A stretch of 64,000 nt of DNA. It comes from Massilia sp. erpn (GTDB lineage: Bacteria; Pseudomonadota; Gammaproteobacteria; Burkholderiales; Burkholderiaceae_D). A program made the position numbers and the translations under genes. The notes under the pieces are model-generated. The model did not search any database and had not been told where the DNA came from. It worked only from the letters and a program-made list of their open reading frames with translations. Position 1 is the stretch's first letter; every line of letters starts with the position of its first letter. The stretch is taken from NCBI RefSeq assembly GCF_024400215.1, contig NZ_CP053748.1:186001-250000 (forward strand). The letters are read 5' to 3'. Shown here piece by piece: positions 13,898-43,339 of this stretch.

Positions 13898-13923
13898 GGT
13901 TTCTTCAGTTTCGGTTTCGATGG

Positions 13924-15024: not shown

Positions 15025-15136
15025 TTTCCCTATCCCGTTTTCGTCGGGCTGCCGGTGCTGCCCGACGCCATGGAGTAACTATAGATTCGCTGGAAAGCCG
15101 GCATCGCTCAAAAGCGCCCATGAAATCGGCAGGACT

Positions 15137-16915: not shown

Positions 16916-16970
16916 GGTGATGGATTTCGATGCGTTGTAGATGCGCTGCCGTCAGGCAATACGCTCCTGT

Positions 16971-17414: not shown

Positions 17415-17426
17415 TGTTTTTAGTCG

Positions 17427-18710: not shown

Positions 18711-18717
18711 CGGCGCC

Positions 18718-20490: not shown

Positions 20491-20493
20491 GGT

Positions 20494-21270: not shown

Positions 21271-21392
21271 ATTCGGTATGGTGTGCGGTGTTGTGATTGT
21301 CGAATAGCGCGGCCCTTGTCCACAGGCAAGAGCGTGCTTTTATCTGGGCGGATTCCATTTCGGGGTGCCGGGCCTCGCCAAAGACCGGCGGA

Positions 21393-21412
21393 CCGGGGCC
21401 ACGTGTCCCCGG
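21393..21412. promoter_or_regulatory. Palindrome copy B upstream of pilL
   Basis: CCGGGGCCAC followed by GTGTCCCCGG: the same palindrome as copy A with one changed base. It sits in the 169-base gap between virB10 and pilL, so it would serve the pil operon. Confidence 0.55.
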
Positions 21413-21439
21413 CATGCGCCGATGTCGGCCGGGAGCGGC

Positions 21440-22831: not shown

Positions 22832-22834
22832 TGC

Positions 22835-24357: not shown

Positions 24358-24426
24358 GGTTCGAGTATTTTCGCCAAGCTTGCGCCGGCCATGCCACGGA
24401 TTGCAGAACGGAAATAAGAAGGATTC

Positions 24427-24460
24427 GTAAAAGACAATCCCGCCTCCATGGGCGGGATTG
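24427..24460 (-). terminator. Hairpin between OmpA-lipoprotein gene and virB8
   Basis: Perfect 10-base stem (CAATCCCGCC) with a six-base loop, followed on the minus strand by TCTTTTA. It may end or attenuate transcription within the T4SS operon, so virB8-B9-B10 may be expressed at a lower level or from their own promoter. Confidence 0.65.
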
Positions 24461-24481
24461 CGGGGTGGCGCGGGAGCGCCG

Positions 24482-25327: not shown

Positions 25328-25355
25328 GGCGCACCCGTTCCTGTTAAGGCGTTTA

Positions 25356-26540: not shown

Positions 26541-26581
26541 GTTCAAATGCCTGTGGATATGCCGCGCGCCTGGCCGCCGGC

Positions 26582-27292
26582 TCAGTACTTCTGCGCCGCC
26601 TGGCGCAGGCGCTGCTGGTAGAGCTCCAACTGGTTCCTGGCCCATTGCTCTTCGGCGGCGCTGCGGTTTGCCTGGTCTTCGCTGGTCTTGTCTTTGGCGG
26701 CCATGGCCGCGACGATCTGCTGGTTTTGGCCGATCAGCACATCGAGGGCCGCGCCCAGTGTCTGCATGGCCTCGGTCTGTCCCTGCACCTGCGACAGCTG
26801 GGCCACGATTGCCTGCCGGCGGCGCGCAGTTTCCTCCAGCGCCTGCGCGATGGCGTTGTAGCGGTCGCGGGACAATTGGCGCTGCTGGCTTTCCATCTGC
26901 TTGCGCGAGGTGGCGAACTGCTCCCAGGACATATTCGATGCGCCGAACTGGGCGCGCAAGTCCTGCAGGATCCTGGCATTACGCTCCAGGTTCATATCGA
27001 GCCGCCCATCCACTTCGATCAGCGAGCGGTAGAGTCCATGCGCCTGTTCCACGCCGGCCAGGGCGGCCACGTTCTTCAGCCCCGCTGTGGAGCGGGCCAG
27101 ATCCCTGGCGGCATTGACCTGCTGGATCAATGTCCGGGCGGTATTGATTTCGTTGGCAACCGCCGAGCGCGAGCTGATCATGTTCTGGATCCAGTTGACG
27201 GGATCGTAAACCGTCCATTGGGCCGAGGCCGAAAGACTCGTTAGCGACAGCATCGCCGCCACGGCGAGGCGGCGCAGGAAGGGGATGGTCAT
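26582..27292 (-). CDS. virB5: VirB5/TrbJ, exported minor pilus component
   Basis: 236 residues from the ATG at 27292 (AGGACAAGC upstream). Signal peptide ending SASAQ, then WTVYDPVNWIQN, the start typical of TrbJ (DP.N...N), followed by long amphipathic helices rich in Gln and Arg. VirB5 proteins sit at the pilus tip and aid recipient contact. The family is variable, but position directly after virB4 fits. Confidence 0.82.
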   Translation of the reverse strand: MTIPFLRRLAVAAMLSLTSLSASAQWTVYDPVNWIQNMISSRSAVANEINTARTLIQQVNAARDLARSTAGLKNVAALAGVEQAHGLYRSLIEVDGRLDMNLERNARILQDLRAQFGASNMSWEQFATSRKQMESQQRQLSRDRYNAIAQALEETARRRQAIVAQLSQVQGQTEAMQTLGAALDVLIGQNQQIVAAMAAKDKTSEDQANRSAAEEQWARNQLELYQQRLRQAAQKY

Positions 27293-27318
27293 GCTTGTCC
27301 TTTCTTGTTGGGGTATGG

Positions 27319-29781: not shown

Positions 29782-29783
29782 GA

Positions 29784-30116
29784 TTACATGCGCACGCCAC
29801 GGCCGAACTTTGCCGGCCGCTCGTACGTTTCGGGGAGTTGTTCTCGTGAATCCGGGTGGTAGCGCTTGCCCATGCGCGCGTATTGAATGTAAATCGAAAA
29901 GATGTGCGTATCTTTTTTATATGCCCAGGCGAGCACGGCATGAATCGCCGCAGACAGGGCAAGCGGGAGTGCGGCGTACCAGACCTGGATGCCGCTGGTG
30001 GCGACCAGGGCGGCGGTGAACGCGCCCGGTCCCCAGCACAGGCCGAGCGCCTTGCTCGAAACCCCGCTGCTTAGGCGGGGCTCGAGAAGCGCGTGGTTGA
30101 CTTCGGAAACGCGCAT
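29784..30116 (-). CDS. virB3: VirB3/TrbD, small T4SS membrane protein
   Basis: 110 residues from the ATG at 30116, which touches the virB2 stop. Two adjacent membrane segments (LGLCWGPGAFTAALVATSGI, WYAALPLALSAAIHAVLAWAY) and a basic tail with YKKDTHIFSIYIQYARMGKRY, the DP/D..(F/I) region typical of VirB3. It supports VirB4 in pilus assembly. Confidence 0.85.
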   Translation of the reverse strand: MRVSEVNHALLEPRLSSGVSSKALGLCWGPGAFTAALVATSGIQVWYAALPLALSAAIHAVLAWAYKKDTHIFSIYIQYARMGKRYHPDSREQLPETYERPAKFGRGVRM

Positions 30117-30484
30117 TAGATGCTGCAGGTCGGCGGCACCATGCCGGAGTTGGCGATGATCAGCGACGAGCCGGCCACGATGGCGGCGCCGATGCCGACC
30201 CGGATGACGATGTCGTGCAGCTTCGAAACACCGAAGAAGTGCTCGATCGCCCACAGCAGGATCACCACCAGGGCGCAGCCGCCGACGATGCCCTTGAAGT
30301 AGTTGGCGATGAAGCAGAAGAACTGGTTGCCGTTGGCGTCGGCCGCCAAAGCCAGGCTCGGGCTCATCAGCATGGCGCCGGCCACGCCCGCCTTGCAGGC
30401 CGACTTCGCCGTCGGCGGCAAACCATCCCAGGCGGCGCTGAGTTGATGGCGCTTAGCCGAGAGTTTCGAGAAGATAGTTTTCAT
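30116..30484 (-). CDS. virB2: VirB2/TrbC, T4SS pilin
   Basis: 122 residues from the ATG at 30484 (CTGGAG upstream). Long signal ending SLALA, then two hydrophobic helices (YFKGIVGGCALVVILLWAI and DIVIRVGIGAAIVAGSSLII) around a short loop, as in VirB2/TrbC propilins. Its start lies 32 bases inside the virB11 3' end. Two cysteines flank the mature chain (FFCF, TCSI), which could form a bond as in some conjugative pilins. Confidence 0.87.
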   Translation of the reverse strand: MKTIFSKLSAKRHQLSAAWDGLPPTAKSACKAGVAGAMLMSPSLALAADANGNQFFCFIANYFKGIVGGCALVVILLWAIEHFFGVSKLHDIVIRVGIGAAIVAGSSLIIANSGMVPPTCSI

Positions 30485-31442
30485 TATGGACTCCAGTGAT
30501 AAGGGAAATTTGTTCGATGCGTCGAACCACGTGCTGCACGCCATCCACCGGCACGATGCGGCGGGCGGCGAAAACGATGACATGGACCGATTCGGCGAGG
30601 TAGCGCTTGACCAGTTCCGGCGGCATGGAGGCGTTAGGTGGCAGGCTCATTTGGAAGAGCATCTCCAGCGCGGACAAGGCTTGCACCGCCGAGTCGGCGT
30701 GAATGGTCGAGACCGAACCTGGGTGGCCCGAGTTGAAGGCCCGGATCAAGTCATAGGTTTCGTCGCCCCGCGTTTCACCGAGGATGAGGCGGTCAGGCCG
30801 CATGCGCATCGCCAGCTTGACCAGGTCGCGCGCCGCAATGCCGTCGTCGGGATTGGACAGGACGGAAATCACGTTGGGCACCGCGATATGGATTTCGCGC
30901 GAGTCTTCGATGGTCAGGATGCGTTCATGCGCGCCGATCTGGCTCAGCAAGGCGTTCAGCAAGGTCGTCTTGCCGCTGCCGGTGCCACCGGCGATGATGC
31001 AGTTCTTGTGTTCCTGGATGACCAGGCGGATCAGCAAATCAGCCTGCTCCCGGGTGAGTGCCCGGTACTTGTGAATCAGTTCGTCGAGCGTCGGCCGCCG
31101 GCTTTTATCCTTGTGCTTGCGGATCGTCATAAACGAGCCGTCCGGGCACACGGGCGCCTTGGCGCCGGCGATCCGCATATCTTCAATGCTGGCATTGACG
31201 ATGGCGGTCGCCGAGTTGGCGATGGAATCCTTCCCGACCAGCTTGGCAATGGCGGTCAAGGCCATATTGATCGAGCCCTCGGTGAGCAGCGCCCCCTGCG
31301 GCACAATGACGCCGTCGGCTTCGACGAAGACCAGGCCGCCGGGATTAATCATCAGCTCGGTTACGGAAGGGTCATCCAGCCATTGGCGCACAGGCTGCAG
31401 CTGCGCGGCGAGGATGTCGAGTGCGACTTTCGGATTTAACAT
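30453..31442 (-). CDS. virB11: VirB11/TrbB, T4SS hexameric ATPase
   Basis: 329 residues. Walker A IAGGTGSGKTT at about 151-160, Asp box LTIEDSREI, Walker B LILGETRGDE and His box GHPGSVSTIHADSA. First gene of the T4SS operon, as in Trb systems (trbB-C-D-E). It switches the machine between pilus formation and substrate transfer. Palindrome copy C is 78 bases upstream of its start. Confidence 0.93.
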   Translation of the reverse strand: MLNPKVALDILAAQLQPVRQWLDDPSVTELMINPGGLVFVEADGVIVPQGALLTEGSINMALTAIAKLVGKDSIANSATAIVNASIEDMRIAGAKAPVCPDGSFMTIRKHKDKSRRPTLDELIHKYRALTREQADLLIRLVIQEHKNCIIAGGTGSGKTTLLNALLSQIGAHERILTIEDSREIHIAVPNVISVLSNPDDGIAARDLVKLAMRMRPDRLILGETRGDETYDLIRAFNSGHPGSVSTIHADSAVQALSALEMLFQMSLPPNASMPPELVKRYLAESVHVIVFAARRIVPVDGVQHVVRRIEQISLITGVHNENYLLETLG

Positions 31443-31520
31443 GGAGCCATTGTCATATACGCATTGCCCTGAAGAGCATCAAAAGCACCATCCTTTTCGC
31501 CGGTATTTGCGTTTGGATGC

Positions 31521-31536
31521 GGGGACATGTGTCCCC
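31521..31536. promoter_or_regulatory. Palindrome copy C upstream of virB11
   Basis: GGGGACAT followed by GTGTCCCC, one mismatch from a perfect palindrome, in the 150-base gap before virB11. Same core as copies A, B, D and E. Confidence 0.55.
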
Positions 31537-31592
31537 CGGACGGCAGGGTGGACCGGCTGGTGCGGCCGGCGCCATTGCCGCGCGGCGCCGCT

Positions 31593-32387
31593 TCACGCCA
31601 CGGCTGGGGCTGTGGCCAGCTGGGAGGCGGCCGTCGGCGCCGGCTCTTTCACTTCGGTCTTGTTCTGGATGCCGCGCAGGGTGCGGGCGATGAACTGGGC
31701 CAGGTCGCGCACTTCCTTTTTGATCTGGTACTCGGTCTGCTCGACGTCATCGCCATCGGCTTCACCGTTCCACACCAGCTGGTTGAGGTTCTGCAGGTAG
31801 CGGTCCTGCAGCAGGAAGGCGGTGGCGACGCGGTTGGCCAGTGGGGTGCGGATCTGCACCGTGTGCCTTGCCGCCGGGTTGCTGTATTCCGGGCGGATCC
31901 ATTCAGCGTTCTCCGCGTGCGCCTCCAGCACCAGGGCGATCTGGCTGGCTTCCTTGCGGATCCGGCCTTCCATCTCAGCAATCTTCTCCTTGATGGTGTC
32001 GAGCAGCTTTTCCGCATTGGCGTCACCGACGAAGAAGCCGCCCAGCTTCACGATGAAGTGGATGCCGTGCTCGATGGAGGCGTAATAGCGTTCGAAGGCG
32101 GAGCCGACCACACGTTCTTGCAGTTCCACGGTGCGGATCATCGACGCCACGCCATCGTGGCGACGGGCCAGTCCCTGGATGCCACGGTCGCGCTGGCGCT
32201 TGGCGCGATTGCGCAGCAGTTGAATGCGCGCTTCGTCGGCTGCTTGCTGAATGGCCTGATCCGCGCTGACGAGGGAGGGTAAGCGGTCTTCGGCCATGCT
32301 CTGCTGTGCAAGCTGATTGGCGTGATCGAGTTGACGCAGGGCGTCGCGTGCTGCGGCATCGGTCAGAACTTCATTGGCGATGGTCAT
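31593..32387 (-). CDS. Conjugation-region protein, possibly DUF1845/AcaB-like
   Basis: 264 residues, soluble, largely helical. The C-terminal part (HTVQIRTPLANRVATAFLLQDRYLQNLNQLVWNGEAD) has the pattern TP.A.R....L...D.....N.L...G seen in DUF1845-type proteins of conjugative elements; the match is from memory and moderate. The tail is Ala/Pro-rich. Located between the plus-strand cassette and virB11, it may be cotranscribed with the T4SS or end before palindrome C. A regulatory or accessory transfer role is inferred. Confidence 0.5.
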   Translation of the reverse strand: MTIANEVLTDAAARDALRQLDHANQLAQQSMAEDRLPSLVSADQAIQQAADEARIQLLRNRAKRQRDRGIQGLARRHDGVASMIRTVELQERVVGSAFERYYASIEHGIHFIVKLGGFFVGDANAEKLLDTIKEKIAEMEGRIRKEASQIALVLEAHAENAEWIRPEYSNPAARHTVQIRTPLANRVATAFLLQDRYLQNLNQLVWNGEADGDDVEQTEYQIKKEVRDLAQFIARTLRGIQNKTEVKEPAPTAASQLATAPAVA

Positions 32388-32599
32388 ATTTCCCTCGGGA
32401 ATAAAAAGTATTTGGAAACCGCATCGTGCCTATTGCGTGAAGGCTGCATCGGGCGAAAGCGCCGCTTTTTTCCAAGGCATTCCGTGGACCGCCGCCTGTC
32501 CCCCAAGTGCAAACGATTGAGGCAAAAAAACCGCGTGGTTTCGGCACGGCGGCGCGGCCACGCGCGGCTATAGTTCGGCACCATCGATAGGAGGCCTGT

Positions 32600-33058
32600 G
32601 TGAAGAATGGTGAAACAATGCGGAAGCTGGCTGTGTCCGGCGCGATGGCAGCCACCGCCGTGCTGGCCGTGGAAGGCTATCTGCGCGCCCGCGCCTTTGC
32701 CGACCGCGTCGAGGCCACGCAACGCCAGATCGCCCTGCTCAGGAACGAGCTTGAGGCGCTGCGCGTCCAGGCCGATATGACGCCGCGCCCGGCCGGCCCG
32801 TGGGCGCCAGCGACGGCCGCCACAGCGGGCCCGAATCTTGTCCTGCCGCTCCCTGAGCCCATGCGCCTGCCGCTGCCGGCAGCGGAACGCCAGTTAAAGG
32901 CGCCGCCCCCGAAGGCCGCGGCCGGCGCACATGCCCAGGCAGGGGTAGAAGCCATTTCCGACGACGGCAAGGTCGTCCTCGCGCAGGAGGGCAAGCCCGC
33001 GCCGGCGGCGGCAGGAGCGCAGCCCGCCGTCGACGTCAAGCTGATGGCGAAGCAATGA
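32600..33058 (+). CDS. Membrane-anchored coiled-coil protein, first of a cassette
   Basis: 152 residues from a GTG at 32600 five bases after AGGAGG. A membrane segment (LAVSGAMAATAVLAVEGYL, about 9-27) is followed by a heptad-like stretch (VEATQRQIALLRNELEALRV) and a long Pro/Ala-rich tail. The stop overlaps the next ATG. Unknown family. It begins a four-gene plus-strand unit inserted between minus-strand transfer genes. Confidence 0.55.
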   Translation: MKNGETMRKLAVSGAMAATAVLAVEGYLRARAFADRVEATQRQIALLRNELEALRVQADMTPRPAGPWAPATAATAGPNLVLPLPEPMRLPLPAAERQLKAPPPKAAAGAHAQAGVEAISDDGKVVLAQEGKPAPAAAGAQPAVDVKLMAKQ

Positions 33059-33276
33059 GCGGCCGCAAGCTCAGCAGGCGCCGCCCCAAGCCCTTGTACT
33101 GCGCCGTGAAGCTGCCGCTACTCGCCATTGGCCTGGCCGCGCTATGCCTGACCAGCAATCTCGTCGGCATCATCCAAACCGTGCTCGCCGCCACCGAAGC
33201 CGCGGCAGCCGCCGTCCAACAAGTAATCCAGCAACAAGCAAGGCAGCAGCCAGACAATGAATCCCCGAGCCCTTGA
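33055..33276 (+). CDS. Small membrane protein (73 aa)
   Basis: ATG at 33055 overlaps the preceding stop (ATGA). A basic N-terminus (GRKLSRRRPK) precedes one hydrophobic helix (LPLLAIGLAALCLTSNLVGII), then an Ala/Gln-rich amphipathic helix. It overlaps the next gene by 20 bases. No family recognised; probably works with its cassette partners. Confidence 0.5.
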   Translation: MSGRKLSRRRPKPLYCAVKLPLLAIGLAALCLTSNLVGIIQTVLAATEAAAAAVQQVIQQQARQQPDNESPSP

Positions 33277-33460
33277 TAAAGACACCGCAGAAGAACACCT
33301 GCGCGACGGCCAGGACAGCATCAAAGAGTGCGTTAAAACACTCCAGCGCGTCCTGAAAAGCTTTCCCGAACATGGCGCCGCTCTCGCGGTGGCGATCGGC
33401 ACACTCACGACCACCAGAGCCGAAATCGCCAGCGTCGCCGAGCGCATCAAGCGTGGCTGA
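33257..33460 (+). CDS. Small helical protein (67 aa)
   Basis: ATG at 33257 lies inside the end of the previous gene. The product is soluble and predicted helical (DKDTAEEHLRDGQDSIKECV, then TTTRAEIASVAERIKRG). No motif recognised. The overlap with its neighbours argues that it is translated as part of the unit. Confidence 0.45.
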   Translation: MNPRALDKDTAEEHLRDGQDSIKECVKTLQRVLKSFPEHGAALAVAIGTLTTTRAEIASVAERIKRG

Positions 33461-33465
33461 GTGCG

Positions 33466-33996
33466 ATGACGCTGGTCTGTCTGATCGGCCGCCACGGCAG
33501 CGGAAAATCGACGATAGGCACGCAGCTCGCCGCCCAAGGCTACCGGCACATCAGTGCCGGGCTGCTGCGCCGCCTGGCCCAATCCCGGCAGTACCCGTCG
33601 GACGTGCCTGCCGGCCTTATCTCGGCCATGGGGCGCGAGCGGCCCGGTGCCCTGCTGTCCCTGGCGACAGCGCGGCGCCTGGTGGCGCATGCCTGCACCA
33701 GCCCGCTCACCGTGCTCGATGGCTTCCCTGCGGCCCCAGAGCAGATCGCCCTGCTGCCGCCGGACACGCTCTTTTGCCTCGTATGGGCGCCAGCCGCCTT
33801 GCGCGGCCATCGCTTGGCCAGCCGCGCGGCCACCACGCAGCGCCAGTGGCAGCCAGGCCGTGCATCCGGGCGCGAGGCGGCACTGGCGCATCTGATTGCC
33901 CACCTCCGCTGCATGCGGCGCTGCCTGTTTGTCCGTAACGCCGGCGCGGCCGGCATGACGGCGGCTGACTTGCTGGCTAAGATCGCCCGCACTTAA
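33466..33996 (+). CDS. Adenylate-kinase-like P-loop protein
   Basis: 176 residues, six bases after the previous stop. P-loop LIGRHGSGKST (about 6-15), then HISAGLLRRL, corresponding to the adenylate kinase NMP-binding start, and TVLDGFPAAPEQ, matching the DGFPR motif but with Ala for Arg. The lid region is short and lacks the usual arginines (HRLASRAATTQRQW). It may be a divergent nucleotide kinase or a non-catalytic relative. It ends the plus-strand cassette, with an intrinsic terminator 28 bases later. Confidence 0.65.
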   Translation: MTLVCLIGRHGSGKSTIGTQLAAQGYRHISAGLLRRLAQSRQYPSDVPAGLISAMGRERPGALLSLATARRLVAHACTSPLTVLDGFPAAPEQIALLPPDTLFCLVWAPAALRGHRLASRAATTQRQWQPGRASGREAALAHLIAHLRCMRRCLFVRNAGAAGMTAADLLAKIART

Positions 33997-34023
33997 GCGC
34001 CGCCTCAAGCTGCAGCACAAAGC

Positions 34024-34053
34024 AAAACGGCCCTCATGAGAGGGCCGTTTTTT
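34024..34053 (+). terminator. Intrinsic terminator after the plus-strand cassette
   Basis: AAAACGGCCCTC pairs with GAGGGCCGTTTT around an ATGA loop, followed by further T. It closes the 32.6-34.0 kb unit. Confidence 0.9.
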
Positions 34054-34093
34054 CGCCAAGGCCCAGGCCTTGGATGCCTTGCAGCTTTTTTCC

Positions 34094-34213
34094 TTATGGC
34101 GCCGGGCGCGTAAAATCACGCTTGACCGCCTTGTACACCAGCACAAACGGGTGGAAGAAATCACGGAAATCTTCCATGGCAACACTCTTCATATATTGAA
34201 GGACGTCCTTCAT
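34094..34213 (-). CDS. Very small protein (39 aa), coupled to membrane protein gene
   Basis: ATG at 34213 lies one base after the stop of the upstream gene, with AGAGGG as ribosome site. The chain is MKDVLQYMKSVAMEDFRDFF... with a basic end. Longer upstream frames are antisense-like and rejected. Function unknown. Confidence 0.4.
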   Translation of the reverse strand: MKDVLQYMKSVAMEDFRDFFHPFVLVYKAVKRDFTRPAP

Positions 34214-34214
34214 T

Positions 34215-34496
34215 TCAATGGCCCTCTTCTTTATTATCAAGAAATACCTTAGCTGCGATGTAGAGCAGAACGCAATACACGTCAAACAGCAGCAGCGCGT
34301 GTGCGAGCAGGCGCATGACGACCAGATCGAAGCCATCTACCCCGATGCTTTCGATCCAGTCCAGCGCCTTGATCAACAGGACAGCCGGCATTGCAACGCA
34401 GAAGAAGCTCACCAGGCCGACGATAGCGTGAACAATACGCTGCGCTATCACAAGGTGCCACTTCTCTTCCTTTTTCCTTTTTTCGTTTTTTACCAT
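34215..34496 (-). CDS. Small two-helix membrane protein (93 aa)
   Basis: The ATG at 34496 begins a basic stretch (VKNEKRKKEEK), followed by two hydrophobic helices (AIVGLVSFFCVAMPAVLLI and LLAHALLLFDVYCVLLYIAAKV). Earlier starts would add an unlikely N-terminus. No family recognised; it may be a small accessory of the transfer or surface machinery. Confidence 0.55.
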   Translation of the reverse strand: MVKNEKRKKEEKWHLVIAQRIVHAIVGLVSFFCVAMPAVLLIKALDWIESIGVDGFDLVVMRLLAHALLLFDVYCVLLYIAAKVFLDNKEEGH

Positions 34497-35055
34497 CGTT
34501 TCCAATCCCTTCTTGCGAAACATCCGAAGTCGGTTGATTTTTTGAAATCCAGGCACGCTCGCTCCACTGGGGGAAAAAGACGTGGACTGGAGGTTGTTGA
34601 ATGCCCGAAAAGGCATGCGGTATCGATGCCGGAAACCGGCGGACGAAAATTGGAGCGTTGCTCATCGGTACAAGCACCGATGAGAAAGTGGATTTGCGGG
34701 ATGGCCCACGGCACGCGGGGGAATGCAAGCTGCACGCCGGCCGATAGCGGACAGGGTTGAGGGAAGCTGAAGGGATTGCTACGCCGCTTGAATGCCGATG
34801 CATTGAAGAAGCTGGATTGAATTACCTGCTGGGAGGTAAGGGAGAGACATTGCCGCAGGACGGCAGTCAAACTTTACTGGATTTCGGCGGCGCCGCCAAC
34901 GGTTTTCTCAAGCCGAGAGCAGCGCAATTTCGCCGCGCATTCCGGCCGGCGTCGCCGGTGGCCGGGTTATGCTCGCGCAAACGCGCACGCGTTCGCTGAA
35001 ACGGCTTGACGGCCCAACCGGCCAAGCCCCTCCCCTCACCTTCATCCTCGCCAAT
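34497..35055. other. 559 bases without a supported gene
   Basis: Several short frames overlap here on both strands but none has a good ribosome site and protein-like composition together. It holds the 5' regions of the divergent small membrane protein (minus) and the next plus-strand gene. The plus-strand frame could begin at 34969 instead of 35056. I see no clear promoter or repeat. Confidence 0.4.
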
Positions 35056-35505
35056 ATGAAAGAACACCTCCCGAAACTCTTTACCGCCATGGACGAAAAG
35101 CTGTGGTTGCGTATGCTCGTCTGCTTCCTGCCAGGGCTGATCCTGGGCAAGCTGGCCGGCCAGCATCCGGGGCTCATCATGGGCCTGCTGGGCACGGGGT
35201 CCCTCATCCTCGGCATCACCCTTTTCTTCCTGTGGCCACGCTTGCGCAGCCTCGTCGCCGGCGACGATGGGGACGCAGCCGGCGAGCCGGCTGCTACGGC
35301 AGCGGCCGCGCCCCACGCGGCGGCACCGCGCCCCGGCATGGAATCGGCACAGTTGATGGACGAGCTGCAGGCACTGTGCGGCGACTCCGGCGCCCAGGCC
35401 ATCGCCGCGGTGCAGACGGAGCTCATGGTAAATCCCAAGCTCTCATATGCCGAGGCAATCGAACTGGCGCATCGGCGGAAGGGACTCGAAAGCGGCAGGC
35501 AGTAG
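35056..35505 (+). CDS. Membrane protein with soluble helical C-domain (149 aa)
   Basis: Start uncertain: ATG at 35056 or 34969. Two closely spaced hydrophobic segments (LWLRMLVCFLPGLILGKLAG and LIMGLLGTGSLILGITLFFL) form an inner-membrane hairpin, followed by an Ala/Pro linker and a C-terminal helix pair (LMDELQALCGDSGAQAIAAV ... SYAEAIELAHRRKG). No family recognised. It converges on the DUF4400 gene. Confidence 0.6.
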   Translation: MKEHLPKLFTAMDEKLWLRMLVCFLPGLILGKLAGQHPGLIMGLLGTGSLILGITLFFLWPRLRSLVAGDDGDAAGEPAATAAAAPHAAAPRPGMESAQLMDELQALCGDSGAQAIAAVQTELMVNPKLSYAEAIELAHRRKGLESGRQ

Positions 35506-35548
35506 CGCAGCCAGGACAAAGGGCGCCGCCGCCCCCTTGTCCAGATGA

Positions 35549-36166
35549 TCAGTTACCTGTCTGGAAGTTCGCCGCCGACAGCCATACGCCGGCACCCAGC
35601 GCCAGCAGGAGCGCCACCAGCACGGTCGACGATAGCGGAATCGGCGCCAGCGGCAGAAAAGCGAACAGGCCGCACATCATCACCACCAGGTGCGTCGAGG
35701 AATAGAAGAATACCGGATTGGACATTTCGAACTTGTACTTCTTGCGGGCACGCACCCCGGAACCATCCACGGCAGCCGCCACGACGAGCACCAGGAGCGG
35801 GAGGAAGAAGATGCGGGTCAGCACATAAGTGCGCCACAAGGCCTTGTAAATCATCATCCACACGCCGTTCATCCAGCGTTGCGGCAAGCCGCCGGCAAAC
35901 AGCACGCCGTCGCTGCTGAAGAGCGCTTCCGACTTCGGCTTGATGCCGCTGTCGATGAAGAGGCTGGTGAACTTGCCGTTGGCGGACTCCGTGAGCGCAT
36001 TGACGTTGATATCGAGGCTGGCCACCATCCACACCTCGGCTTCGCTGATCGGCTGGTTCGGAAAAACCAGGGGCAGGAAGATCAGCGACAACAGCGGCAG
36101 GAACAGGCACCACAGGGCCAGATGACTGCCAAAGCTGTTCTTGATGGCGACAGGATGGATGGCCAT
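35549..36166 (-). CDS. DUF4400 (PFL_4697-type) ICE membrane protein
   Basis: 205 residues with four hydrophobic segments: near 18-36, 117-133, 155-170 and 178-198. The region from LTRIFFLPLLVLVVAAAVDGSG through ARKKYKFEMSNPVFFYSSTHLV to the final membrane pair fits the DUF4400 family, which has PL..A...DGL..R..RR....ES...Y. Such proteins are encoded next to traD in integrative conjugative elements. The role is unknown, probably membrane-associated transfer. Confidence 0.75.
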   Translation of the reverse strand: MAIHPVAIKNSFGSHLALWCLFLPLLSLIFLPLVFPNQPISEAEVWMVASLDINVNALTESANGKFTSLFIDSGIKPKSEALFSSDGVLFAGGLPQRWMNGVWMMIYKALWRTYVLTRIFFLPLLVLVVAAAVDGSGVRARKKYKFEMSNPVFFYSSTHLVVMMCGLFAFLPLAPIPLSSTVLVALLLALGAGVWLSAANFQTGN

Positions 36167-36170
36167 GCGC

Positions 36171-36680
36171 TCACGCCAGCATTTCGGCGCCGTTGAACAG
36201 CTCGCTCAACGAGCGCTGGTCCAGCACGCTGCTCGGGATGATTTTGGTCATCATGAAGGTGCGGGCCAGCATCGGTGCAATCAGGCATTCCTTGCGCGTG
36301 ACCGTAGGAATGGCGTGCGGCAGCTGGGCCAGGAAGGCCATCAAGCCGCCAGCAAACTGCGACCACTCGATTTCACCTTGCGGCGTTTCGACAACGATGT
36401 CTTGCGCGAACACGTCGCAACTGTATTCGAGCAGCGCGTTGACGAAGGCGGCCCGGGCCGCATCTTCATCGTCTTCGCGCTGCCGGAATTCCGCCAAGGC
36501 TTTCCTGATCGCGGTGACGAGCAGGGGCTTGCCGGATGCGTCAATCGACTCCATGCCAACATAGCCGGCAAAGCTTGTTGCGATCTGCTCGAGCAGTGGA
36601 TACTGAATCCAAATCACCTTTGCAGCTGCCTGGTCACCGGTCTCTTTGACGGCGACCGTCAGGATCTTCTTTTCATTCAC
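36171..36680 (-). CDS. Hypothetical protein between traD and DUF4400 gene (169 aa)
   Basis: Starts with GTG at 36680 after AGAAGG. Soluble, mixed alpha/beta, acidic in the middle (FRQREDDEDAARAAF). No recognised motif. A possible 15-residue leader frame (MKFLQSYKN...) at 36724-36677 overlaps its start codon. Four bases separate it from the DUF4400 gene, so the two are cotranscribed. Confidence 0.55.
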   Translation of the reverse strand: MNEKKILTVAVKETGDQAAAKVIWIQYPLLEQIATSFAGYVGMESIDASGKPLLVTAIRKALAEFRQREDDEDAARAAFVNALLEYSCDVFAQDIVVETPQGEIEWSQFAGGLMAFLAQLPHAIPTVTRKECLIAPMLARTFMMTKIIPSSVLDQRSLSELFNGAEMLA

Positions 36681-36858
36681 GAGGCACCTTCTTCGGTATT
36701 TTTATAGCTTTGCAAGAACTTCATATGGTCGCTGCTGTACGCATTTATCGAAATTGAATCAACGATTGCCTACTGTAACTATTTTTAGTAGGAATGAAAC
36801 AGTTTTTATACTTATTGTCGTATTTACGGCGCACAATTGGACGAAAGTGCTACCGCCC

Positions 36859-38733
36859 CTACTCCAGCAGGGGCAGACGCCCCTTATACAGCGCGCTGCC
36901 GGCGAGGAAGGCGAAATACTGCAAGCCAGGCAAGCGGGTCAGCAAATCCTGGCTGACCAACGGAATTTCAGTTTCGCTCAAGCTTCGGCTGGTCGAGCCG
37001 CTGAACTCGGTAAATGAGGTGGAGGAACCCGATCCGGTGGAATGGGAAACACGCACATCGCGCGCGGCGGTCTGGCCAAAGGACGTGGCAATCCACTTCG
37101 CCATGTCCGGGTCTTTCACACGCAGGCAGATCACGTTGTTCAGGTTACCCAGCGCCTGGCCGGTGCGGGCTGCGTTGCCGAAGACCACGTCGAAGTCGGC
37201 AATGGTCTGGGTTGCAATGAACGCTTTGATGCCCGCGCCGCCACCCTTGTTCAGCAACTGGATGCCCTGCTCGTTCATCACTTCGGCCGCCTCGTCAACG
37301 AACACATAGATATCCTCGGGCTGGCGGAAATTGTAGATCGCGCCGGCCACGCTGGCCAGGTCCGCCAGCAGGATCGAGCCGATGGCCGAGCCGATGGTCT
37401 TGTTCGACAGCGAATCCAGTCCAACGTAAAGGACCGCTTTCTCTTCAATGATTTTCTGCGTGTCGTAGATCGGCCGGTTGTCGTTCATGTCCAGCGGATC
37501 GGGCGATAGCATGGCGCCCAGCTCGTCCGAGCCGAGCATTTCCAGGATTGGCTCAAGCACCTGGATCATCTTGCTGTAATGCTCTTTCGGATGCTGCGCC
37601 ATGGCGATGAGCGACTCGATGGTTTCATCGTCAAGGGCGAGCGCCTGGAATTTGCCGATCATGCTTTCCAGCCGTCCCGACGCGAGCGGCGACGCCTTGC
37701 CCCGGGCTGGTTTCTGGGCGTAGGCCGCGAGATCCTGGTCCCAGGCGCCCCCCTGCAGGGCGTACAGCTTTTTCTGGATAAGCCGTTCCAGCAGGGCTTC
37801 GACGCCATTCTGCACATACTGCCTGGCGCTGCGAATCGTCGGCCTCTCACCGTCCGCCACCTGGGCGCGCATGACGCGGAACAGGGTCTTCCAGGCGAAA
37901 GCGCCGAACGTGCCGTCCGCGTCGATCAACTGGCCGATACGGGTCGCCGCCTCCGAGACCGTGTTCCAGTTGGCCAGTGGATTCATGCGTATCGAGCGCG
38001 AGGGGTGGGCCGGGTGGAAGAACAGGAACTTGCGGCCGGCGCGTTGGCATTCCTCACGTACGCGCCGCTCCCAGTCCTTGTCGCCCTTCGGATCGATGAT
38101 GATCAGGATCTTCCCGGCATGGATAATCTGGCTCGAAAGCAATTCGTAAAGCCGTGTCTTGCCGGCCCGCGTAGTCCCAACCACCAGGGTGTGGCCGGAC
38201 AGCGCCTCGATCGGCAAGGTCAATTCCGCTTCTTCGGTACTGAGGCCGTGGATCCAGGAGACACCAATGGCATCCTCTTTCAGCGGCACGAAGTTGGCAG
38301 GTTGAATAGCCCGCAAAACCGGCTTGGGCAACCAGGCCGGCGGTCCGGCAATCTCGCCCGGACTGCGGAACATGATCTGCCGCGCGACTTCGGCGTGATG
38401 CTGTGTCCAGCGAAAGCCCCTGCCCAGCCAAAAGCCCCCTTTGCCGCTGGCGCCACCGTTTTTTCCCCCATCGGGCTTGAGGTGCTCGCGCGAAAGCTGG
38501 ATCGCCTGCGCGACGGGCATCACCTCGACGCGTAGTGCGGCTATCGAAGCGCGGAAGCGATACAGGTCGAGCGCCTGCTTGCCGCGCACTGCGGAGGCGG
38601 CGATCATGCCGGCCGCGAGCGCCGGCCACATCGGCGGGTGCAGGACGCTGAACGCGGCGGACGCCAGCGCCCAGCCTGCGCATGCCGGCAGCTCGTACGC
38701 CGGCCGGAACATATCATGGTAACTCCGCGCCAT
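36859..38733 (-). CDS. traD: TraD/VirD4-type coupling protein (SXT/R391-like)
   Basis: 624 residues. Membrane segments near 18-50, Walker A VVGTTRAGKT at about 185-193, IIIDPKGDKDWERRV, Walker B IYVFVDEAAEVMN near 475 and the FIATQTIADF motif, all typical of the MOBH-associated TraD family. It brings substrates to the T4SS and powers their entry. It is 16 bases downstream of the TraI-like gene, the usual traI-traD order of SXT and ICE families. Confidence 0.9.
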   Translation of the reverse strand: MARSYHDMFRPAYELPACAGWALASAAFSVLHPPMWPALAAGMIAASAVRGKQALDLYRFRASIAALRVEVMPVAQAIQLSREHLKPDGGKNGGASGKGGFWLGRGFRWTQHHAEVARQIMFRSPGEIAGPPAWLPKPVLRAIQPANFVPLKEDAIGVSWIHGLSTEEAELTLPIEALSGHTLVVGTTRAGKTRLYELLSSQIIHAGKILIIIDPKGDKDWERRVREECQRAGRKFLFFHPAHPSRSIRMNPLANWNTVSEAATRIGQLIDADGTFGAFAWKTLFRVMRAQVADGERPTIRSARQYVQNGVEALLERLIQKKLYALQGGAWDQDLAAYAQKPARGKASPLASGRLESMIGKFQALALDDETIESLIAMAQHPKEHYSKMIQVLEPILEMLGSDELGAMLSPDPLDMNDNRPIYDTQKIIEEKAVLYVGLDSLSNKTIGSAIGSILLADLASVAGAIYNFRQPEDIYVFVDEAAEVMNEQGIQLLNKGGGAGIKAFIATQTIADFDVVFGNAARTGQALGNLNNVICLRVKDPDMAKWIATSFGQTAARDVRVSHSTGSGSSTSFTEFSGSTSRSLSETEIPLVSQDLLTRLPGLQYFAFLAGSALYKGRLPLLE

Positions 38734-38749
38734 TTTTCTTTATCTCGAG

Positions 38750-40006
38750 TCAGGAGTGCAGGGAGTGTTGCGCAGCGGCGCCCGCACTGTCGCCGAAGAA
38801 GAGCGTACTCAACGACGCGTTGACGATCAGGCTGCGCGCATCATCGGAACGGCGGATAACCAGTTGGGCGTCTTCCATCATCTTGCGGACGGCCGCACCG
38901 GAGGTCCCGAACATCCCCAGCATATTGATCGGCACTTCGATGCCCTCCTCGCTGACGCTCAAGTGCTCCCGCAGCGCGGGATAACGGGCATGCTGCCGGA
39001 GGGCGGCGAACCAGGCCACCAGTATCGTGTCCGCCGCGTGCAAGGACTCATGGCGCTGCGGCAGCGCCGCCGGGGGGGGCGCCAGGGCCTCGTCTGTTGC
39101 GGCTGCCGGGCCGGGCGCCGCTGCGCGCGGGGCATCCGGGACCGGTGCTGGCGCGGCCGGCGAACCGGCCGCAGGCTGCGGCGGCAGGGCTGGGGGAACC
39201 GCTGGCGCAGCGGCGGGCGGACTGGCTGGCATGCCCGGCTGCGCCCCGGCCACGGCCCGGCTGGCAAGGGCGGCGGCTTCCGCCACCGAGATGTGCAGCG
39301 CGTGCGGCGGCGCCTGGAAGAGCGCGGCCTGTTTGGCCGCATAGTGCGCCATCACGGCCTGGATCGACGCGCAGACGACGCGCGCCACAGGATTTTCAAG
39401 ACCGTTCGGCGCCGTCTTCACCGCCACGGCGTCGTACAGCATCAGCACCACGCGCGGGTCGAACGATTCGAACAGGCCCACCGGGATGAACCGCGCGGCG
39501 ATCGCCGCGCATGCCGGCGCGCTCAGCGGCGCTTCCCCGCTGCGCCAGTTGAAGCTGGCGTCCGCGCGGTCTTTCAGCCATCCGGCCAGCGAGGTGCAGG
39601 CTGTGAGCGGATGGTATTGCTCGCCGGCGCAAGTAACTCTTGCCGCGGCGGCGACCATGGCCACGCTGGCCGCAAGCGTGGCCGCAAAGCCCATGTATTT
39701 GCATTGCGGCTCAAGGCGCCGTCGTTCCTCGGCACCCAGTTCGGGGAAGAAAATGACGGTCTCGGCGTAGCTCAAGGCGACCTTTGCCGCCACCAGGCCA
39801 AAATCCCAGGCGCCGCGCACCGCAGCGAACGCCGTGGCGGACAAGGGCAAGCCCTGTACGGAGTTAGCGTAAGCGCTAAGGAGCGGCATGCAGAGGCCGT
39901 TGAACTGCGCCGCCGTCAGGCCGGCAGCCGTCTTGATGCTTTCAATCTGCTCGGCAGATTCAACGATGAGCTGCGCAGCAGCGATAGGGGCGGTGAGTCG
40001 ATCCAT
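38750..40006 (-). CDS. TraI-like (MOBH-family) protein lacking relaxase metal ligands
   Basis: 418 residues from the ATG at 40006 (a TTG at 40030 is possible; neither has a clear ribosome site). The N-terminal domain follows TraI_2: LCMPLLSAYANSVQGLPLS and then, at about 60-75, where active members have HH...GGLL.H, it reads FAAVRGAWDFGLVAAKV. The second site (LLHD.GK in relatives) reads SVAMVAAAARVT. The YHPLTACTSLAGWL region is kept. A 90-residue Pro/Ala linker leads to a winged-helix TraI_2_C-like end (GIEVPINMLGMFGTSGAAV). It probably binds DNA or TraD but should not nick by the known mechanism. Confidence 0.65.
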   Translation of the reverse strand: MDRLTAPIAAAQLIVESAEQIESIKTAAGLTAAQFNGLCMPLLSAYANSVQGLPLSATAFAAVRGAWDFGLVAAKVALSYAETVIFFPELGAEERRRLEPQCKYMGFAATLAASVAMVAAAARVTCAGEQYHPLTACTSLAGWLKDRADASFNWRSGEAPLSAPACAAIAARFIPVGLFESFDPRVVLMLYDAVAVKTAPNGLENPVARVVCASIQAVMAHYAAKQAALFQAPPHALHISVAEAAALASRAVAGAQPGMPASPPAAAPAVPPALPPQPAAGSPAAPAPVPDAPRAAAPGPAAATDEALAPPPAALPQRHESLHAADTILVAWFAALRQHARYPALREHLSVSEEGIEVPINMLGMFGTSGAAVRKMMEDAQLVIRRSDDARSLIVNASLSTLFFGDSAGAAAQHSLHS

Positions 40007-40107
40007 TACTGCATTATGTCGGCGTGACAAATACGCGCCGATTGGAATGCTGACGAATTACGCGAACGGCTCGGTTTTTTTTGATGGATCGACATACGGG
40101 GTTCGCT

Positions 40108-40131
40108 GATGCCAAGATCTCTTGGCATCAG
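40108..40131. repeat. Inverted repeat next to palindrome D
   Basis: TGATGCCAAGA and TCTTGGCATCA separated by two bases, in the gap upstream of the TraI-like gene. Together with the following 40-base palindrome it makes two consecutive cruciform-capable sequences. Confidence 0.75.
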
Positions 40132-40133
40132 GC

Positions 40134-40173
40134 CGGCCCTGATCCGGGGACACGTGTCCCCGGATCAGGGCCG
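40134..40173. promoter_or_regulatory. Palindrome copy D, 40-base perfect palindrome upstream of traI-like gene
   Basis: Centred on CAC/GTG at 40153-40154 and containing the core GGGGACACGTGTCCCC, extended by CCCTGATCC arms to 20 bases each side without a mismatch. It lies 127 bases upstream of the TraI-like start. It could be the strongest operator copy or part of a transfer origin. Confidence 0.65.
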
Positions 40174-40211
40174 TGACGCAACGGCCGCCATCGACGTGCC
40201 CGCCAGCCGCC

Positions 40212-40733
40212 TTAGCGGCGTTCGCCGGTTTCGGGGACACATGTCCCCCGCAGTGCCGATGCCTTCCCGGTTGCCGGCTCATCGATGACCATGGTCATGG
40301 CATCGATGGCGAACAAGGGCTCCGTCCCGGCATATTCGCTGCGCAGACAGACATGCCATTCGCCGCGGCGCAAGAAGGCGGCGAAGCGCTGCCTGGACAC
40401 CTTGCGCGCTGCGCCGATCCTGATCTGGCAGGGCAAGCGGTGACTGCCAAGGACGAACAGCGCCTTTGTCCAGCTCTGCATGCCTTTCACGCCGGGGTGC
40501 ACCGCATCCAGCTGCACGCGCAACAGCTCGACGCCATAGGCGATTTCAATGGCTTCAATCTGGGGCAGCGTGAAAGCGCTGGCCCCGTTCAGCTTCCGAT
40601 ACGCTTGGGCGATCGCAACGCCGATAACGCTGGATAAAGCCTTGGCATATGCCTGGGGTTGGACACCCACAGTTGCAAGGACGAGCTTAACCTTCGTAAT
40701 CAGGTCGTGGCGGCGCTGTTCCTGCATAATCAT
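40212..40733 (-). CDS. Candidate DNA-binding regulator (173 aa)
   Basis: ATG at 40733 (TTG starts and a second ATG lie nearby). Residues about 8-60 include LVLATVGVQPQAYAKALSSVIGVAIAQAYRKLNG and FTLPQIEAIEIAYGV, an arrangement like an XRE-type helix-turn-helix followed by a helix. The C-terminal half has short strands and ends PETGERR. It is the first gene upstream of the transfer genes and contains palindrome copy E in its last codons, which suggests it could autoregulate and control the other copies. Both points are inference. Confidence 0.5.
   Translation of the reverse strand: MIMQEQRRHDLITKVKLVLATVGVQPQAYAKALSSVIGVAIAQAYRKLNGASAFTLPQIEAIEIAYGVELLRVQLDAVHPGVKGMQSWTKALFVLGSHRLPCQIRIGAARKVSRQRFAAFLRRGEWHVCLRSEYAGTEPLFAIDAMTMVIDEPATGKASALRGTCVPETGERR
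40233..40248. promoter_or_regulatory. Palindrome copy E inside the candidate regulator gene
   Basis: GGGGACAC followed by ATGTCCCC, one mismatch from the perfect core, within the 3' end of the regulator gene, about 60 bases from copy D. Confidence 0.5.
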
Positions 40734-41144
40734 GCTCAACAACTGTTAAATAATTGGAAAGAGTAGAGTCTACCAAAAGACTTCGCTTCAAGGGAATTTT
40801 CCGTCCCCTACATGAGGCTTCCGAGCACAAATATTGCTATCCAGCTCAAAGTAATAGAACATTTATGTGCAGGCAAAAAATAACAGGAATGCACTAATTA
40901 TTTCTACAAGGCTACATATTCGCTTGACATGATAATAACACGGAGAAATACTGCTGTTTTTATCAAATGAATTTGCAGCCCCCTCCCCCACATACGTATC
41001 GCTGCCAGCGCCTCATTGCTTATTTCCGACCGTCGCAAGACGGATCTTGAATTCTCGTAAATAACCGTGACTTTTTGAAGCGATTGCCTATGGGAAATCC
41101 TGCATACTTTTTTTACCATTTTGTAGCTTTGCAAAGGCCCCCAT
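40734..41144. other. 411-base AT-richer gap with divergent regulatory regions
   Basis: Clearly lower in GC than its surroundings. It separates the candidate regulator (minus) from the coiled-coil/FlhDC-like operon (plus). A short minus-strand frame (41134-40904) lacks a ribosome site and looks spurious. A promoter-like sequence lies at 40924-40952. Confidence 0.55.
40924..40952 (+). promoter_or_regulatory. Sigma70-like promoter for the regulator operon
   Basis: TTGACA and AATACT separated by 17 bases, in an AT-rich setting, about 190 bases upstream of the gene at 41145. The -35 is perfect; the -10 matches TATAAT moderately. Confidence 0.4.
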
Positions 41145-42200
41145 ATGTCAGCAAGTGAAGTTGGTTTTCTCGCCCAGGTCTTTCAATTTGACGAGCCGGG
41201 TGATGACGAGGCGCCAGTCCCCTTGGACCTGGCTGACGTCTCTGAAGAGAACCGTGCCGTTTTAAATACCTGCGTTGCCGAATATCGTTCCGCCGGCCGC
41301 CGCGTGGTCAGCGAGCTGCTGACCATGACCGAACAGTTGGTCAAGATGCGAGAAATCCTTGGCGACCGCCACTTTTACCCGTTTGTACGCAACGAGCTGG
41401 GCCTGAAAAAGCGCACCATTACTCGTTACCTGCACTTGAATAAGGTTCTACAACAACACTTCGCGGTCGAGGGCAAAGTTCCTTTGGCCGTTACCAATTC
41501 GATTTCCCAACGCGCCCTGTTACTCCTGAGCCCGGAAACCGATGCCGCGGTCATTCAAGAGGTTAAGGCGGTGATCGACGATGGCGGCAAGATCGACAGC
41601 CGGGCGGTGGAACAAATCCTGGCCGAGCGCGAAGCGGCACATGCCGCGCAGCTGGCCGGCGCGCAGGCCGAGGCCCAATCGGCCGCGCGGGCACTGGAGC
41701 GCCAGCGCGATCAGCACGTGCTCGAGCTGGCCCGCGCCCAGCGGGAACTGGGCAGTCAAACTGAGTTGCTGCGCCGCGCCGAGGAAACCAGCCAAATCCT
41801 CGAGCAGGAAAACGATACGCTGCGCCGCCAAGCCACCGAAGTGCGCTACGAGGAAAAAAAGGTCGAGGTCATCCCGGCCGGCTTCACCTCGCTACAAGAG
41901 GCGATCGACGCCAAGCGCGGCGAGATCAACGCGCTCGCTTCGGAACAGGATGGCATTGCCGGCAACATCGCCGCACTCAAGGAAAAGCGCCGCGTGCTGG
42001 AGCAACAACTGGCCCCGCTCAGCGACGGCGTCGACGACTTCCTCGCGCTGAAAGGTCAAATCGAAGCCCTGATCACGCGGTTTCCCCTTGGACTGCTTAA
42101 AGAGCTGGGGGTGGGCGATAAGACGGTCAAGCTGGCCCTGGCGGGACTCGGCCAGACGATGAAGCTGTTTGGTGAACAGCTCAGCGCTGCCGGTGCGTGA
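41145..42200 (+). CDS. Coiled-coil protein with DUF3102-like N-terminus
   Basis: 351 residues. Residues about 45-95 (LTMTEQLVKMREILGDRHFYPFVRNELGLKKRTITRYLHL) fit a DUF3102-type helical region with HTH character. Residues about 160-275 form a long coiled coil rich in Glu, Gln, Arg and Ala, and a helical C-terminus follows. The layout recalls KfrA-like plasmid proteins that bind DNA and structure or regulate operons. It heads the flhDC-like operon. Confidence 0.65.
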   Translation: MSASEVGFLAQVFQFDEPGDDEAPVPLDLADVSEENRAVLNTCVAEYRSAGRRVVSELLTMTEQLVKMREILGDRHFYPFVRNELGLKKRTITRYLHLNKVLQQHFAVEGKVPLAVTNSISQRALLLLSPETDAAVIQEVKAVIDDGGKIDSRAVEQILAEREAAHAAQLAGAQAEAQSAARALERQRDQHVLELARAQRELGSQTELLRRAEETSQILEQENDTLRRQATEVRYEEKKVEVIPAGFTSLQEAIDAKRGEINALASEQDGIAGNIAALKEKRRVLEQQLAPLSDGVDDFLALKGQIEALITRFPLGLLKELGVGDKTVKLALAGLGQTMKLFGEQLSAAGA

Positions 42201-42211
42201 GGGGGTTCGAC

Positions 42212-42577
42212 ATGTCTGATGATTTTAAAAGCAGGGACATTCCCGCGTCCAAGGCGATCTTTGATACGCATACCGCTGTCCGGACGAAGATCGAAGCGGC
42301 GAACCGTGCCGTGCATGAGGCGCTGGTCGCGATGGTCGCCTACCGGGACCCGATGGCACCGGTGGTCTTCGGTGCGACCCAGGAACAGCTCGAAGCCATC
42401 GCCAACGCGCCGAAGTCCAAGCTAAACCAGATCTTCATGACCGGTATCCCTACTTTTTCGCTGGCGATGGCCAACGAGAAGTTCAGCACGGTCCTGAGCA
42501 ACTCCGATGATCCGGATGCCTGGCTGCGCGTCCTGCTCCAATCCTTCCCTGCGATCCTGCCAATCGCCTCGCTGTAA
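42212..42577 (+). CDS. FlhD-like (SetD/AcaD-type) activator subunit
   Basis: 121 residues from the ATG at 42212 (GAGGGGG upstream), 11 bases after the coiled-coil gene. The middle (VVFGATQEQLEAIANAPKSKLNQIFMTGI) follows the FlhD pattern F.LG....A..LA.L....L..L, which forms the dimer and DNA-contact region. Similarity is weak on its own; the adjacent FlhC-like gene makes the assignment likely. Partner of the next gene in a heteromeric activator. Confidence 0.65.
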   Translation: MSDDFKSRDIPASKAIFDTHTAVRTKIEAANRAVHEALVAMVAYRDPMAPVVFGATQEQLEAIANAPKSKLNQIFMTGIPTFSLAMANEKFSTVLSNSDDPDAWLRVLLQSFPAILPIASL

Positions 42578-42586
42578 GAGGACAAT

Positions 42587-43171
42587 GTGGAACATACCTC
42601 CGGACATCTCGCCCACAAGGCCAGTGCTCCTTACGCATCCAAGGTGGCGATCGCGCAGGCCTTGGCTGGAATGGGCGCGCGCGCGGTGACCATCACCGCC
42701 GTCGCGCGCACCAAGCCGGCTGATTCGCGGGCAATCTATAAAGAAGTCAACGGCACCCAGTCGCTCTCCGGCCAGACCCCGACCAACCACGAATGGTTTC
42801 TCGGCAGCCGCAGCCTGCGCTTGCAAGCCGCGTTTTTGCTGCTCATGTATGTCAGCTATCGTGAGCGCCACAGCGCCGATGCCGATGCGCATGGGATCGC
42901 CTTTACGCTGGCCTACCATAACTATCGCCGCCTGTATCCGGGCGAGGTCTTGATCAGCCCCGAGCGCCTGGCTTTGCTGATCGGGGGCGGCTATAGCATT
43001 GGCTGGCGCGAAATCCCCAGGGGCGGGGTCTCGAAGTTTGCAGCAGGCAACGTCAAGGTGACGAAGTGCCGTAAGTGCGCCCTGCCCCACCTGGTCGAAG
43101 CCCACTTCCGCAAGTACGAGTGCGCCGACTGCCAGGCCAAGGTGGAAGCGCCGCAACTGCTGGCCGCTTAA
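42587..43171 (+). CDS. FlhC-like (SetC/AcaC-type) master activator subunit
   Basis: 194 residues from a GTG at 42587 (AGAGGACAAT upstream). ALAGMGARAVTITAVA and SRAIYKEVNGTQSLSGQTP match the conserved FlhC start (LI.LGAR ... LYKE..G....G..P), and C161/C164/C179/C182 form the C-terminal CX2C-X14-CX2C zinc site. In SXT/R391 (SetCD) and IncC (AcaCD) elements such pairs switch on transfer genes. Chromosomal flhDC drives flagella, but the location in a transfer region favours the element type. It is the last gene before the chromosomal block. Confidence 0.8.
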   Translation: MEHTSGHLAHKASAPYASKVAIAQALAGMGARAVTITAVARTKPADSRAIYKEVNGTQSLSGQTPTNHEWFLGSRSLRLQAAFLLLMYVSYRERHSADADAHGIAFTLAYHNYRRLYPGEVLISPERLALLIGGGYSIGWREIPRGGVSKFAAGNVKVTKCRKCALPHLVEAHFRKYECADCQAKVEAPQLLAA

Positions 43172-43339
43172 AGGCAGCAGGGCAATCGCCGCATGCCACG
43201 CAGGGCACAGCGGCGCGGATGGCGGTCATGAATTTTCCTTGCAAGATGCAGGTGAATTGAAAGCAAAACAGGGCGCAATCGGATAGACTTCCGGTCATAA
43301 CGATATTTGCTTTTCACCTAAACAATTGACGGAGCCATC

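Follow-up and report, generated by a model that had tools for sequence, protein, structure and literature searches.

The TraI proteins of SXT, IncC, Rts1 and GGI are MOBH relaxases, and a review states, in its accessible text, that cleavage by GGI TraI requires both the 3H and the HD motifs (PMC12857230). Loss of TraI from IncC lowers transfer by about 3 logs in a plasmid assay or by 5 logs for SGI1 and does not abolish it; in the same paper, as far as its available sections go, the tyrosine-recombinase-like MpsA of SGI1, which uses the IncC apparatus, is a proposed relaxase, and TcpM of pCW3 is cited as a similar case (PMC6414798). MobK, another tyrosine-recombinase-like relaxase, is described in excerpt as nicking via its tyrosine (PMC8152469). 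The plasmid pMOL28 has been typed as MOBH and conjugative in the part of the source available (PMC6357080); the accessible portion of the CH34 genome paper describes this system as possibly 'sui generis', asks whether its pil block secretes rather than conjugates, and reports conjugation far more frequent for pMOL50 than for pMOL28 or pMOL30 (PMC2864759). Our literature search, beyond whose reach most subscription papers lay, found no report of ligand-less MOBH proteins.

The window analyzed here is a 64,000-nucleotide stretch (186001-250000) of the single-contig, 6.15 Mb genome of Massilia sp. erpn (G000), and its positions 1..43210 belong to a chromosomal island whose left boundary falls about 340 bases to the left of the window. 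Four relatives were fetched for comparison of the site; G028 gave the right flank alone in the sequence fetched, and G070, G053 and G013 have an empty site in which window positions of about -336 to -461 are joined to about 43210-43650 with 380-450 bases between them. Since three relatives have the empty site, the window genome carries about 43.5 kb extra. The interval in G070 reads by eye like an acetyltransferase gene, of which the ends alone remain in the window genome, so that part of the target gene seems to have been replaced. The island has a GC content of 61.0%, its flanks 63.0 and 64.5%; there is no tRNA in the window, and the junctions showed no end repeat when read by eye. Forty-four long reading frames, chosen for being open, were listed across the island, and in a Pfam scan of 30 of them no replication, partition or recombinase gene was recognised. 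A like island is present in G315, a member of another genus, with 29 of the 44 window genes and none of six window flank genes matched; it sits at a different chromosomal site although the island has no recognised integrase, replication or partition gene. A second contig of G315 encodes a longer ligand-less TraI.

At 38750..40006, on the reverse strand, the island encodes a 418-aa MOBH TraI-like protein with a TraI_2 domain (PF07514, 36.3 bits). A structural model and comparison with the PDB divide it into an HD-like domain (about 10-228), a Pro/Ala linker of low confidence (about 257-317) and a C-terminal domain (about 327-407); PDB sequence searches gave no convincing relative. Its scores are 58.8 with the NCBIfam MobH equivalog (cut-off 200) and a weak 26.7 bits with TIGR03760, the PFGI-1/ICE-type TraI, far below the cut-off of 161.4. 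We took as canonical yardstick eight MobH references, all of which possess the fourth H and HD, with HHH in six and DHH in two. None of the aligned 3H positions in the window protein is a His, H3 and H4 are both Phe, and HD reads AS. Ligands displaced to another part of the chain, which the first-pass annotation had named as something to look for, were rejected: the rest of the protein contains neither an HH nor an HD pair. That annotation had described a MOBH TraI-like protein without its metal-binding residues in which the fold, the traI-traD order and a separate C-terminal part are kept, and the alignment, the TraI_2 domain, the adjoining TraD (TIGR03743) and the domain at about 327-407 bear it out on each of these points. 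Its statement that a relaxase of this family needs the ligands holds for the one biochemically studied member, GGI TraI, in the accessible text of the review (PMC12857230), and is extended from there to the family. The best reading of the sequence is that the protein is a MOBH relaxase descendant which lost the nuclease site and kept the HD-type fold, the C-terminal domain and the place before TraD.

The loss is shared by the close relatives of the protein. Among 45 close homologues, database proteins found with the window protein, HD is intact in none, H3 and H4 are each F in 44, an H near the first position occurs in three, and the other motif positions are mostly small residues; the 46-row alignment of the window protein with these homologues nevertheless has 57 invariant columns, including G65, A66, W67 and G70. 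Because HD is intact in 0/45 and yet 57 columns are invariant, the family lost the site but conserves something else, and on this sequence evidence the missing ligands are not decay. TraI is less conserved than TraD in 7/7 pairs, none of them canonical (e.g. 40% vs 71%), which fits a loosened role as well as a changed one. An island with no recognised replication, partition or recombinase gene and a seemingly partly replaced target gene could be the decaying remnant of an integrated conjugative plasmid; however, the 44 long frames across it are open (and were chosen because open), members of the TraI family are conserved among database proteins and across 6 of 44 sampled genera, and the like island exists in G315, so that we regard such a remnant as very improbable.

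The genes downstream of traI resemble those of a transfer system and lie on the reverse strand. Adjoining it is an SXT-type coupling protein, TraD (36859..38733, TIGR03743 664.7 bits, cut-off 366), followed by a small protein with no Pfam match (36171..36680), for which tblastn found a match at the equivalent place in G061, G167, G315 and G283 (4/12 sequences searched), and by a DUF4400 protein (35549..36166, PF14348 73.9 bits, cut-off 27), the TraJ of SXT and Rts1; the identity of Rts1 TraJ with DUF4400 is given in the accessible text of PMC10838148. The VirB-type apparatus comprises a VirB11/TrbB-type ATPase (30453..31442, PF00437 134 bits, cut-off 24.9), a VirB2-like pilin (30116..30484, PF04956 25.7 bits, just under the cut-off of 27.9) that is 62% identical to its positional counterpart in G315 and 35% identical to the one in USMAA2-4, a VirB4 ATPase (27319..29781, PF03135 39.5 bits, cut-off 21), and VirB10, VirB9, VirB8, an OmpA-type protein and VirB6 (21440..26645), with Pfam matches to TrbI, CagX and OmpA, and with VirB8 and VirB6 named by synteny and 26-39% identity to USMAA2-4 genes. 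It is followed by a type IVb pilus block (6032..21270) in which the SLT transglycosylase, DsbC, Big_2 protein, PilS, PilQ, PilO, secretin and TcpQ rest on Pfam, and PilV, PilR, PilP and two Cys-rich proteins are named by position and by eye. Profile scores above cut-off were obtained for TraD, DUF4400, VirB4, VirB9, VirB10, VirB11, PilS, PilO, secretin, TcpQ, PilQ and, narrowly, FlhC; the names VirB3, VirB5, VirB6, VirB8, PilV, PilR and PilP come from position, weak similarity or inspection by eye. The FlhC-type activator is encoded on the forward strand (42587..43171, PF05280 27.3 bits, cut-off 27); together with the two preceding genes (41145-42577) it has a tblastn match in 8 of the 12 sequences searched. 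The locus thus has the SXT-type TraD adjoining traI, the DUF4400 gene and, by a narrow pass, the master activator of an SXT/IncC-type module.

Several other genes of the region and its relatives deserve mention in their own right. The two Cys-rich proteins are very similar, lie in tandem (8945-10282 and 10490-11830) beside the pilV-like gene and resemble products of a duplicated pilus-tip or secreted-protein gene. An additional RNase III-like gene (3963-4631) adjoins DUF882-like and EAL-like genes named by eye, and all three are matched in the G315 island. An IscB RNA-guided endonuclease gene is annotated directly after traD in USMAA2-4 (28964-30382) and pPNAP01 (22316-26883), and pPNAP01 has a second IscB copy further on.

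Beyond the window family, the short TraI-domain proteins of pMOL28 and of the self-transmissible pHG1 (413 and 418 aa) likewise lack HD. In the best 120 of 309 homologues of this type, HD is intact in none and H3 is kept in 118. In the pBN2-type set, 107 homologues of the 723-aa pBN2 MobH, E replaces D in 96, L or M stands at the fourth H in 95, and H3 is present in 69, a count that includes the set's five canonical HD proteins. Proteins from this set, in which E stands for D and L for the fourth H (pBN2 10647-12818; P0166, P0173, P0175, P0177), carry the NCBI name 'MobH family relaxase', which is therefore no guarantee of an active site. TraI_2 matches occur in 54 of 399 sampled genomes of the order, with 66 match rows in total, of which we read 50 (the 30 best loci and 20 picked mostly from weak ones): 28 have H4 and HD, 18 lack HD (six of these keep a D), three end before HD and one has no domain match. 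In a tree of 93 TraI_2 domains, for which database rows were sampled and 12 of 16 odd or partial loci left out, a single branch with support 100/99 parts 52 ligand-less from 41 canonical rows; the split persists with the motif columns masked (50 rows, 31 vs 19, support 100/99), where the tool warns of long branches. A 14-row TraD tree places nine window-type and two pMOL28-type rows in one clade (100/99), and HHalign comparisons among the C-terminal domains of the three ligand-less groups give E values of 3e-5, 3e-5 and 2e-11 with probabilities of 72, 73 and 97%. Judged by these alignments and trees, the window gene belongs to an extensive clade of MOBH-like proteins that lack the ligands, and we describe the family as old and large, with many members on environmental plasmids. 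The first-pass annotation had described this one element; the ligand loss stands, and it is no lone oddity, since the gene belongs to this clade. A further ligand-poor TraI_2 group (L125, L126, L128), found in other families of the order, reads RRY, LRY or SRY at the HHH positions, with an R replacing the fourth H and RD replacing HD.

These replacements raise the question of a rebuilt site with which ligand-less proteins would still cut DNA, built for example from H3 and the conserved E of the ELHR motif in pBN2-type proteins, or from other invariant residues in the window group. The regular E and H3 of the pBN2 set, the H3 of the pMOL28 group, the NCBI relaxase names and, in the window family, the invariant H132, D183 and H221 with four Glu outside the motif are what such a site could be made of. 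Yet the motif positions of the window group are F, F and mostly small residues, and both motifs are needed for cleavage by GGI TraI in the available text of the review (PMC12857230); for the clade at large we consider a rebuilt site improbable, and an active site reassembled from the remaining invariant residues of the window protein likewise seems unlikely.

If the TraI-like protein does not nick, another enzyme would have to be sought. In G000 the profiles of three other relaxase families, PF03432, PF08751 and PF03389, have no match, and the sole PF07514 match is the gene at 38750-40006. The same three profiles gave nothing above cut-off in seven plasmids, with one PF03432 match below cut-off in pPNAP01; G061 possesses TrwC. 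PF01076 was silent in every genome and in the controls and is thus uninformative, and a profile of the TraI family had no match in a scan of genome contigs. MOB-suite types pHG1 and USMAA2-4 as MOBP, a relaxase that the PF03432 profile did not show, and types pMOL28 as conjugative and MOBH; the PLSDB gene table of pMOL28, which is incomplete, has no product named relaxase among its 165 features.

That table does list an 'integrase domain-containing protein' of 384 aa, locus tag RMET_RS31495, with PF12835 and a Fis-type helix-turn-helix, in which the recombinase catalytic residues R, K, HxxR, GH and Y are kept (14-row alignment, one row a fragment). It is present at 41-100% identity in 36/36 pMOL28-type plasmids, which come from the best 40 of 51 matching records, and lies 24-61 kb from traI in the nine measured. 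Canonical MOBH systems have it in 0/8 plasmids and 0/5 regions of 63-80 kb. Among window-type copies it accompanies traI in 6/10 (USMAA2-4, two near-identical B. contaminans plasmids, pPNAP01, Polaromonas P1-6, where it is in two frames, and G167, where it is on the traI contig 69 kb away), and among pBN2-type or other long forms in 7/10 (pBN2, G315 C2, on the same contig at about 125 kb, G429 C2, G024, G037, G044 and G785), all these counts being of replicons related by descent and so not independent. G000 has no relative of the pMOL28 recombinase in the whole genome at E 1e-3, nor in the island; the G315 chromosomal island has none within 60 kb and one copy 2.7 Mb away; G061 and G283 have none on their traI contigs and copies on other contigs; and G049, G156 and G070, of the pBN2 type, have none within the stretches searched. 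A further short copy, G457 C12, has the recombinase on the same contig, and G458, G204 and the copies in G055, G015 and G030 are outside these counts. Against the pattern, G479, where the sole TraI_2 match is to a canonical protein, encodes a relative of the recombinase (157 bits) on another contig. Relatives of the recombinase are found in 168 plasmid records, 38 of them from Acinetobacter. The Paraburkholderia plasmid NZ_LR699557.1 (64,284 bp) holds both a pMOL28-type traI and the recombinase, and could serve as a compact model plasmid. A tyrosine recombinase linked to transfer genes is thus found in many plasmid relatives and not in the window genome. From this association and the precedents we hypothesize that it would be the likeliest substitute nicking enzyme in the plasmid relatives. 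The recombinase could also act in dimer resolution or integration, its association with traI may reflect a shared plasmid backbone, and the transfer of pMOL28 could rely on other elements that its host carries.

The first-pass annotation had concluded that the element either depends on another relaxase or uses its type IV secretion system (T4SS) for something else. This fork names the right alternatives, and the interpretation as a whole is partly supported: no other relaxase was recognised in the window genome with PF03432, PF08751 and PF03389, and the recombinase provides a candidate in the plasmid relatives. We favor, with a probability of roughly 0.55, a nuclease-dead MOBH protein that serves as an adaptor to TraD. 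It would bind DNA or the relaxosome and hand the substrate to the coupling protein, and a different enzyme would nick the DNA; the best candidate for it in the plasmid relatives is the conserved tyrosine recombinase, whose gene is on the replicon of traI but at a distance from it. Because the window genome lacks that recombinase, the island is probably unable to start its own transfer, and the window copy would act in trans, or T4SS and pilus functions alone would have been retained. This proposal starts from the observed ligand loss, the family conservation, the one split from the canonical proteins and the open neighboring genes, and from there we infer the adaptor role and the nicking by a different enzyme. 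The other branch of the fork, in which the T4SS and type IVb pilus were recruited to deliver proteins, mediate adhesion or release DNA and the TraI-like protein, now an adaptor or regulator, takes no part in DNA processing, is consistent with a chromosomal island in which the Pfam scan recognised no replication, partition or recombinase gene, with its counterpart at another site in another genus, and with the question of secretion by the pMOL28 pil block in the accessible part of the CH34 paper (PMC2864759). However, TraD, DUF4400 and the FlhC-type activator are kept as in SXT/IncC elements, many relatives are on plasmids, and no effector or immunity genes were recognised, though they were not specifically searched for; recruitment is in our view a rather unlikely account.

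The adaptor reading can be extended, as a tentative and still doubtful generalization, to a split relaxosome in many Burkholderiales megaplasmids and islands, where a nuclease-dead MOBH protein would escort DNA to TraD and a tyrosine recombinase elsewhere on the replicon would cut and rejoin it. If so, the MOB type 'MOBH', as given to pMOL28 by MOB-suite, names the wrong enzyme. The movement of pMOL28- and pHG1-type megaplasmids becomes testable, as HD is missing from the sole MOBH protein found on them, and the family provides a naturally occurring case in which the nuclease role of MOBH TraI is separated from its other roles. It is also a warning that MOB types and the label 'MobH family relaxase' extend to proteins without catalytic residues.

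Compared with known systems, the locus resembles the MOBH relaxases of SXT, IncC, Rts1 and GGI in the TraI_2 fold, the place before traD and the downstream DUF4400 (TraJ) gene, but its protein has neither the 3H nor the HD metal ligands and measures 418 aa against 1017 aa in an Aeromonas example; unlike IncC, which is typed MPF_F, it has a VirB-type T4SS with a type IVb pilus. The likeness to the PFGI-1/ICE-type TraI (TIGR03760) is a weak domain match, and an example of that type, P0272, keeps the HHH motif, the fourth H and the D of HD, whose H is replaced by Y. TcpM (pCW3), MpsA (SGI1), which works with a MOBH TraI system, and MobK (pIGRK) are likened by class, not sequence, to the candidate partner in the relatives of the window, which is a tyrosine recombinase too; that recombinase is a putative relaxase, and the window genome is without such a gene. 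Also among the closest systems are the pMOL28/pHG1-type megaplasmids of Cupriavidus and Burkholderia: they are plasmids with a conserved tyrosine recombinase, whereas the window island is chromosomal in a genome without one, and they share with it the short ligand-less TraI, TraD, DUF4400, and the VirB and pilus genes.
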